DNA of 64,000 nt from Halorussus caseinilyticus. Its GTDB lineage: Archaea; Halobacteriota; Halobacteria; Halobacteriales; Haladaptataceae. This document shows, in pieces, positions 5,084-63,321 of the stretch. The position numbers were made by a program, and so were the translations under genes. Where the stretch lies: the NCBI RefSeq assembly GCF_029338395.1, contig NZ_CP119809.1, positions 2,976,001 to 3,040,000 of the forward strand. Direction: 5' to 3'. Position 1 is the first letter of the stretch. Every line of letters begins with the position of its first letter. Below the pieces are notes generated by a model that was not told where the DNA came from, searched no databases, and saw only the letters and a program-made list of their open reading frames with translations.

Positions 5084-5247
5084 TTGAAGCCCCCGGTCGC
5101 TCGCGGTCGTTCAGCGACATATCTGCCGGACGTAGTTGCGTCAGATAGAGGTCGCTGAAACGACCACGGCCCTTCGGACCGCGAGCGACCGGCCCCTTCA
5201 TCCCACCCTCGGTCGATTCGCCGGGCGTTCGCCGGTGGAAAGTCGTA
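5084..5247 (+). ncRNA. Structured repeat element, copy A (candidate RNA or mobile hairpin)
   Basis: The 430-nt gap before hemB holds no convincing gene but carries a long foldable element. Stem P1 pairs 5093-5105 (CCGGTCGCTCGCG) with 5180-5192. Stem P2 pairs GGTCG plus TTCAGCGAC (5105-5118, sharing one base with P1) with 5151-5165 and leaves a bulged A at 5160. A small apical hairpin is formed by ATCTG 5121-5125 with 5142-5146. The sequence begins GAAGCCCCC and continues CCCCTTCATCC after P1. A second copy with the same flanks and compensatory changes lies at 63004. Whether it acts as RNA or DNA is unknown. The rest of 4899-5330 shows nothing else. Confidence 0.6.
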
Positions 5248-5330
5248 CCGAGCGTTCACTGGTTTTTGCGGCGTGACAGAACTGCGGCGGGAGCGACGCG
5301 GTTTTGACGCCCGCGGCGCAAATCCCGGAC

Positions 5331-62842: not shown

Positions 62843-63003
62843 GCAATATTTTTGTTTCTTTTAGAAATGTTCTGTTTTGTCAGAGAACGGTGGATGTTGT
62901 TGTCGGTTCTCGTCGCGGACGTAGTGAGGAAGTTCTAGAAAGCCCTCGCTCTCTCCGCAACAGCACCGCAACCGCGGGAACTACGACGGCAAAGAAGTCT
63001 CAG

Positions 63004-63127
63004 AAAGCCCCCGCCCGCTCGCGGTCGCTCAGTGACATATTCTCGCGCCTCACTTCGTTCGGCGCTCGAATAGGGGTCACTGAGACGACCACGGTAAACG
63101 CGAGCGGGCGGCCCCTTTCATCCACCC
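63004..63127 (+). ncRNA. Structured repeat element, copy B (candidate RNA or mobile hairpin)
   Basis: Second copy of the element at 5084. P1 pairs 63011-63023 (CCGCCCGCTCGCG) with 63099-63111. P2 pairs GTCG plus CTCAGTGAC (63024-63036) with 63076-63089, leaving a bulged A at 63085; an apical GCGCC/GGCGC and ATATTC/GAATAG helix completes the rod. The element starts GAAAGCCCCC and continues CCCCTTTCATCCACCC. The conserved 3' strand word ACGACCACGG is shared with copy A. It lies 195 nt before the Hef start. The preceding 62843-63003 stretch shows only an AT-rich start and no gene. Confidence 0.6.
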
Positions 63128-63140
63128 AAACCGGTGGGTT

Positions 63141-63255
63141 GGTCGGCCGAGCGCGTCCCCGTGGGAGGTAACGCCGAGCGCATCTCGGCAGGTGGTCGGC
63201 CGGGCGCGTTTTCGTGGTTTGATTGGCCGGGCGCGTCCCGGTGGAACGTTCCACC
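63141..63255 (+). repeat. Three 24-nt direct repeats and a palindrome before hef
   Basis: Units at 63141-63164, 63194-63217 and 63221-63244 share GGCCG(A/G)GCGCGT, with GTGG at the end of each. The third runs into GGTGGAACGTTCCACC (63240-63255), a perfect 16-nt palindrome, and a partial copy CCGGGCGCGTTCCA follows. A similar GATT-GCCGGGCG...CCGGTGGAA segment lies 3' of copy A (5212-5242). They may be protein-binding sites or the tail of the repeated element. Confidence 0.6.
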
Positions 63256-63321
63256 GGGCGCGTTCCACTTTCACCCCGATAGGCGAATCCTTTAATCACT
63301 TGACGACCAACCTGCCCACGA

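Follow-up and report, generated by a model that had tools for sequence, protein, structure and literature searches.

The hef upstream hairpin and its second copy

A long hairpin lies upstream of hef in the window (the whole stretch of 64,000 nucleotides from Halorussus caseinilyticus that was analysed), and a related one lies upstream of hemB; the question raised by this locus is what kind of element keeps its pairing while its letters change. The preliminary description left three readings: a structured RNA, a palindromic mobile element, or RNA related to IS200/IS605 ends. Both copies are present where it placed them (Table 1), and comparison by eye bore out the shared sequence blocks, the bulged A retained in P2 of both copies, and the four double changes that preserve pairing (G-C to C-G and T-A to C-G in P1; T-A to C-G and C-G to T-A in P2). 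Folding of the + strands gives z-scores of -6.66 and -7.46 as RNA and -6.68 and -7.35 as DNA, with 0 of 200 shuffles equally stable for either copy in either type of fold.

The core of copy 1 consists of P0 (4 bp), a C/C internal loop, P1 (12 bp), P2 (5+9+5 bp) and an apical hairpin. The 5' A/C-rich units of the 66-bp type and the 3' units of 26 bp belong to the element, which has a composite layout: a number of A/C-rich units of ~66 bp, a hairpin core of ~120 nt, and a number of units of ~26 bp. The start of the 5' unit, AAAGCCCCCGCCCGCTCGC, recurs upstream at several loci, and the 26-bp-type array also adjoins other copies and most short forms. Micro- or minisatellites of GTCGTT/GTCGGA precede the element at about ten of 43 loci; long satellites of the GTCGTT or GTCGTCGGA type stand directly 5' of the cores at L013 (~ten 33-bp units), L023 (close to 300 bp of GTCGTT), L030, L032 and L033. 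A second repeat, GCGGTGCGGTGCTGTGCGGTCTGATTGGCTCAAGCC-like, is found beside the element at L133 and L144 (downstream of the cores) and at L034.

Table 1. Features of the two copies and their surroundings, in window coordinates
Feature	Position	Strand	Basis
5' flanking A/C-rich unit, degenerate ~66 bp repeat	62926..63003	+	similarity extent; other copies have one to several
Hairpin core, copy 1	63004..63127	+	R1 135.8 bits; folds; alignments A1, A2
P1 5' arm	63011..63022	+	minimum-free-energy RNA fold
P1 3' arm	63100..63111	+	minimum-free-energy RNA fold
P2 5' arm, three helices	63023..63042	+	fold; covarying pairs
P2 3' arm with bulged A 63085 and GGG side of internal loop	63068..63090	+	fold; covarying pairs
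3' flanking tandem array, ~26-bp GGTTGGTCGGCCGAGCGCGTCC-like units, part of composite	63128..63246	+	similarity extent
Promoter-like block before hef, TTCCACTTTCACCCCGATAGGCGAATCCTTTAATC, outside and downstream of element	63263..63297	+	conserved at element-free hef loci
Hairpin core, copy 2, between VTT-domain gene (-) and hemB (+)	5086..5208	+	R1 107.4 bits; Pfam neighbours
26-bp-type 3' flanking units, copy 2	5209..5263	+	similarity extent

Copy number and distribution

A covariance model, R1, was built from 41 of 43 copies (alignment A1; L011 and L041 omitted), and alignments A2 and A3 were fitted to it. Both window copies belong to the training set of R1; a filter-off scan found no other convincing match in the window, the next-best scores falling on the same two places on the opposite strand (26.4 and 20.2 bits) and the rest at or below 18 bits. 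BLAST of 63004-63250 against the own genome, which scored 40 of 245 candidates, gave at least 41 matches. The covariance-model search that had been suggested scored 150 of 8483 candidates and gave at least 111 matches at E<=0.01; some of these are short or weak, and one place was counted on both strands. The element was first called two-copy, which is correct within the window and does not extend to the genome.

Further copies exist beyond the window in the own genome and in other haloarchaea, as found by both R1 and a pattern of the exact ends. R1 has matches in 32 of 59 genomes (own included) and in 17 of the 18 genomes of the genus, with none in G008; counts within the genus are patchy (0, 1, 6, 10, up to at least 60 per genome) and are lower bounds because at most 60 candidates were scored in each. 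The exact-ends pattern occurs in 36 of 391 genomes of the class, in 20 of 86 genera, and in 73 stretches of the named-sequence collection, all haloarchaeal by title; one hit of the reversed control was noted (G012), and among the forward hits a few, for example one in G349, do not resemble the element. As read from the pattern stretches, other subtypes share the ends and have a different interior. The test set of R1 comprised 43 of the 73 pattern loci (33 R1-type by eye and ten with another interior), 19 loci of relatives, and L085; none of the ten loci with another interior gave an R1 match, and therefore the family is wider than the model. Common ends argue less strongly for homology than R1 matches do.

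Named loci and plasmid records carrying the family come from Halorussus, Haladaptatus, Haloarcula and other haloarchaea; seven plasmid records have a match, all of them haloarchaeal. Phage records gave no match to the element. Viral spread was considered and set aside, as the nine IMG/VR pattern hits, read individually, are without the element; eight of them share one tRNA-like sequence (by eye) and the ninth differs.

Conserved fold and covariation

The order on the plus strand is AAAG, a C-rich loop, P1 of ~12 bp, P2 of 5+9+5 bp, the apex, an optional P3, P1', a C-rich loop and CTTT; P2 carries a bulged A or G, and an A facing G's. The fold was checked in 128 aligned matches from the own and other genomes. 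In the own genome (63 distinct matches) pairing holds in 98.6% of cells, and both partners change at 16 of 36 pairs; the corresponding values for other genomes are 97.5% and 21 of 36 (61 distinct matches, mostly from Halorussus with some from Haladaptatus and MAGs). The covariation score was reached by 0 of 500 shuffles in the own set and likewise in the foreign set, and sliding the partner positions abolishes pairing. The covariation claimed from two copies is real, holding across own and foreign aligned matches, and it backs selection on, or active maintenance of, the folded form.

The conserved fold includes conserved unpaired positions: across 63 foreign matches these are the C's at either end, the A that faces GG, and the bulged purine. 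The ends, read by eye, are mostly (T/C/A)(C/A)G-AAAGCCCCC and GGCCCCTTT, then CAGTCCC or a variant, and AAAG...CTTT forms an inverted repeat at the ends. By pattern, 58 of 65 own matches have T-N-C as the + strand apical loop; among 63 foreign matches this loop is T-N-C in 11, one other type in 18, a third type in 3, and unclassified in 31. Triloops of the P3 region, counted where stems had at least four perfect pairs, were T-N-C 26, G-A-A 1 and A-C-G 7 in 64 own matches, and T-N-C 13, G-N-A 4 and other 4 in 62 foreign matches; the A-C-G triloops look like chance pairings at the junction, and the apical bin of the scan held mostly T-C-A (18 and 16), taken for chance pairings within the P2 arm. 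When read on the minus strand, the apical and P3 loops of the own genome are mostly C-GNA-G triloops. Loops of the G-N-A type, the minus-strand form of T-N-C, are very stable in DNA, which is a hint and no more.

Strand signals

If the + strand were selected as RNA, G·U would be expected above A·C among the imperfect pairs. The two are 13 and 12 in own copies, while in other genomes G·U is 13 against an A·C count of 32, seven of which are at one pair; these counts omit the junction pair (G·U 12 and 14, A·C 1 and 1), where G·U goes with a particular sequence variant. G·U makes up ~1.2% of + strand cells. There is no + strand G·U excess, which argues against a + strand RNA and fits maintenance at the DNA level; the A·C excess in other genomes could possibly fit a minus-strand RNA.

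A multi-copy structured ncRNA made from one strand, its conserved loops binding a protein, would accord with the conserved unpaired positions and the strong covariation, and the foreign A·C pairs (equivalent to minus-strand G·U) together with the more stable minus-strand RNA fold at 63004-63127 (-72.3 vs -64.6 kcal/mol for the plus strand) would point to the strand concerned. Such an RNA is nonetheless judged unlikely given the scarcity of G·U on the + strand, the symmetry of the own copies, an even placement relative to genes, and the window having no match to Rfam covariance models at gathering scores. The proposal of a structured RNA thus fares poorly on the wobble pairs and on Rfam, and the element moreover lies upstream of a conserved block before hef.

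Placement relative to genes and orthologous sites

For 43 copies placed with a home-made gene caller based on hexamer scores, the neighbouring genes are both on the opposite strand in 12, both on the same strand in 11, divergent in 11 and convergent in 9; gene calls, some of them doubtful, overlap four copies, and the same caller makes the window 87% coding. The position directly upstream of a plus-strand gene reported earlier applies to the two window copies, and genome-wide the even orientation contradicts it. Transcription terminators, or other ordinary look-alike intergenic hairpins, would explain the GC-rich stems followed by CTTT on both strands; this reading is largely refuted by the placement of copies between divergent as well as convergent genes, and is highly improbable in view of the sequence, loops and ends conserved in other genomes.

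At the hef site an R1 match is present in the own genome only among the 18 of the genus (the G002 locus was cut 91 nt upstream of hef); in seven other genomes the two genes are still neighbours, separated by a clean stretch of 73-168 nt, and genus hef loci without the element have the promoter-like block conserved beside hef. The hef upstream gap in G003, G013, G001, G011 and G014 (L066, L068, L077, L080 and L082) holds other extra sequence of 550-1224 nt, and the gap therefore seems insertion-prone. The hemB site has the element in two of 18 genomes (G000 and G009) with the same apical sequence, the two copies differing by eye at three compensated P1 pairs and one P2 pair; since this copy is common to G009, some copies are old. 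The hemB locus of G016 (L093) has an apparent degenerate short form below the R1 threshold. A comparison of 64 copies with 400 kb of G004 found the flanking genes side by side for four of them (the two window copies, L134 and L135) and was ambiguous for two (L133 and L144); G004 lacks the element at all four sites, of which L135 may be no orthologue because its neighbours are only 55% and 67% identical. The repeat is dispersed, mostly intergenic, evenly oriented, and absent in relatives from several orthologous sites.

The element stands 5' of a conserved promoter-like block at hef and at L134, and is therefore not the leader of either gene; a riboswitch or leader RNA is disfavoured by this place upstream of promoter-like blocks and by the even gene orientation. 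An orientation linked to replication was suggestive in 61 copies and not significant in 87 (p=0.114). Replichores are ill-defined because the main chromosome contig of the own genome, C1, has five main Orc1/Cdc6 gene places.

Of the 111 matches, 106 are on the 3.48-Mb main chromosome contig, which is 79% of the genome (p=1.2e-6). A chromosome-structure or protein-binding site (for nucleoid, topoisomerase or insulator functions) selected at many intergenic sites would be expected to show such enrichment on the chromosome, a mostly intergenic position, and conserved loops; it would be less easily reconciled with matches that range from 0 to at least 60 within one genus and with the small number of genus genomes in which the two orthologous sites tested are occupied, and is considered quite unlikely.

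Probable exchange, inversion and loss of domains

Identical or nearly identical cores are found in three copies within 8 kb at L024, and in L026 and L032, which are 2.0 Mb apart; the 80-nt flanks around these cores are only 53-63% alike. Copies less than 20 kb apart are more alike than permuted ones (0.751 vs 0.685; 29 pairs among 61 copies, p=0.0004), a similarity helped by the L024 trio. In L252 (1001-1139) the P2 domain is inverted inside P1, matching at 0.94 as reverse complement vs 0.73 direct. Eleven short forms were read, and most retain the flanking arrays. Nine comprise P1 topped by a small loop, which in two of them is longer or shorter than usual, and the other two still have part of P2. 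Three of the small loops read GTGACC and three read GGTCAC, which are mutual reverse complements. A palindrome that is duplicated, turned round or severed at its stem in DNA would be expected to yield such short, inverted and exchanged forms; conversion is indistinguishable here from separate insertion into arrays already present.

L011 (2983-3106) and L253 have no 5' P1 arm and share a GTCTGCGTCGCTTCGCTCCGCAGAC hairpin instead; they are chimeras with the hairpin of another repeat. The inverted core pairs at L049, L058 and L159 flank an inner palindrome (in L058 and L159, CCTCCCCAACCGA ... TCGGTTGGGGAGG-like), and may form a larger composite unit; in this they resemble REPIN-like units.

Search for a mobilising enzyme

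The Y1 transposase family (PF01797) has no match in the own genome, nor in G001, G002, G009, G010 and G016, each of which has from 29 to at least 60 matches to the element. It is present in ten of the 18 genus genomes, six of these with at least 42 element matches, and is both found in and missing from high-copy and low-copy genomes of the genus. TnpB has eight above-cut-off matches in the own genome, all more than 3 kb from any listed copy, so that the check for tnpB beside the copies came out negative; the earlier statement that no transposase is nearby agrees with the five neighbouring proteins scanned. The proposed relation to IS200/IS605 ends did not find support, with IS605 ends or a RAYT disfavoured by the absence of PF01797 and by the TnpB distances, a comparison of adjacency only.

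A REP/BIME-type element moved by a RAYT or another Y1 (HUH) transposase, and therefore with IS200/IS605-related ends, would be extragenic, palindromic, present in high copy and sometimes found as inverted pairs, as is the case here (L049, L058, L159 and L015), and Y1 transposases do occur in the genus, including its high-copy genomes. This reading is very unlikely when the own genome and five well-populated relatives are without PF01797 and no TnpB match adjoins a listed copy; an enzyme since lost may be invoked to sustain it.

Retro-mobilisation by a reverse transcriptase is ruled against, as PF00078 is found in 0 of 18 genus genomes and in three of 14 control genomes. An autonomous parent was sought among 224 called proteins from 35 loci (window omitted), which gave only weak paralogue pairs and none recurring beside many copies; the genes between the tail-out pairs L145, L035 and L016 are, by the analysts' own reading, ordinary host genes. 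The test for a MITE covered PF01797 and TnpB as partner transposons. No target duplication or exact boundary is definable because the flanks are repeats and the relatives are diverged.

Comparison with known systems

The behaviour of the element appears closest to that of REP/BIME sequences and of the SMR elements of Haloquadratum. SMR-A of Haloquadratum walsbyi is ~110 bp with prominent terminal inverted repeats and no transposase, occurs in up to 54 copies, and has ends unrelated to known transposons; its mobilisation is called enigmatic by the authors (PMC3119063). By description, the element is like SMR-A in its comparable size, inverted repeats, high copy number and want of a transposase (PMC3119063). 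Copies of a given SMR type, however, are usually alike at >95% identity, and their targets are PATEs and IS605-type palindromes (PMC3119063), whereas the element here is diverged with coordinated stem changes, lies between ordinary genes, and has flanking arrays. The PATEs of Haloquadratum are likewise palindromes without a transposase; their palindromes resemble IS605-type ends (PMC3119063), while no IS605 link is seen here.

REPs measure 20-40 bp and carry a GTAG or CGTC tag, the GTAG types being accompanied by RAYT genes (PMC3733652). Like REP, BIME and REPIN sequences, the element is extragenic, palindromic and in high copy, has alternative complementary stem residues, and occurs as singles and dimers (PMC3733652, PMC2817692, PMC3116915). 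The REP hallmark of extragenic, high-copy palindromes is displayed; however, the element is ~120 nt, has another end motif, and comes from a genome in which no Y1 enzyme was found, and its ends, read by eye, do not have a GTAG/CGTC tetranucleotide at the foot of a 20-40 bp hairpin. Searches of open-licence literature gave no description of the element, and of 21 papers containing an end-sequence string, none of the 20 with a listed title concerns haloarchaea.

Proposed explanation and its meaning

The element is, with reasonable probability, a composite, non-coding, non-autonomous palindromic interspersed DNA repeat whose hairpin domains are exchanged, inverted or lost; the earlier palindromic mobile element holds as a broad class. 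Counted for a DNA repeat are the at least 111 matches, the patchy counts in the genus and the element-free hef sites; covariation in own and other genomes and strand-symmetric imperfect pairs in own copies; and like cores in unlike flanks, the likeness of copies less than 20 kb apart, the L252 inversion, the short forms, and the conserved unpaired positions. Counted against it are that no mobilising enzyme was found and no duplication or boundary is definable, the old hemB copy in G009, the indistinguishability of conversion and insertion, and the foreign excess of A·C over G·U. The 106 of 111 matches on the main chromosome also count against it, whereas active insertion sequences often accumulate on megaplasmids.

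For such a DNA repeat, the DNA of the core would extrude into a hairpin or cruciform, most likely while it is being replicated or repaired; domains could then be copied between extruded copies (conversion), or flipped or deleted at the stem. Occasionally a recombinase provided in trans may insert the whole unit at a new intergenic site; it would recognise the near-invariant ends (AAAGCCCCC ... GGCCCCTTT) and the loops. The compensated changes would then arise from module exchange, palindrome correction and retention of hairpin-competent copies rather than from RNA function.

Another account, possible though doubtful, is haloarchaeal mobile DNA active as folded ssDNA, in which a non-Y1 enzyme recognises the conserved C-tract ends, the A/GG loop and the bulged purine; the folded active strand would probably be the minus strand. 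If this were true, the stem sequence would be free to drift in pairs. Integron attC sites are an analogue for a folded single strand; the element here would instead spread genome-wide.

The large family of palindromic interspersed DNA repeats is real. It is an abundant non-coding element of Halorussus that is found in other haloarchaeal genera too, and its natural variants of a single DNA fold, which number well over a hundred, could serve to test palindrome spread, conversion and inversion in archaeal genomes without an IS200-type transposase. The family is furthermore a warning that covariation by itself is no proof of a functional RNA.
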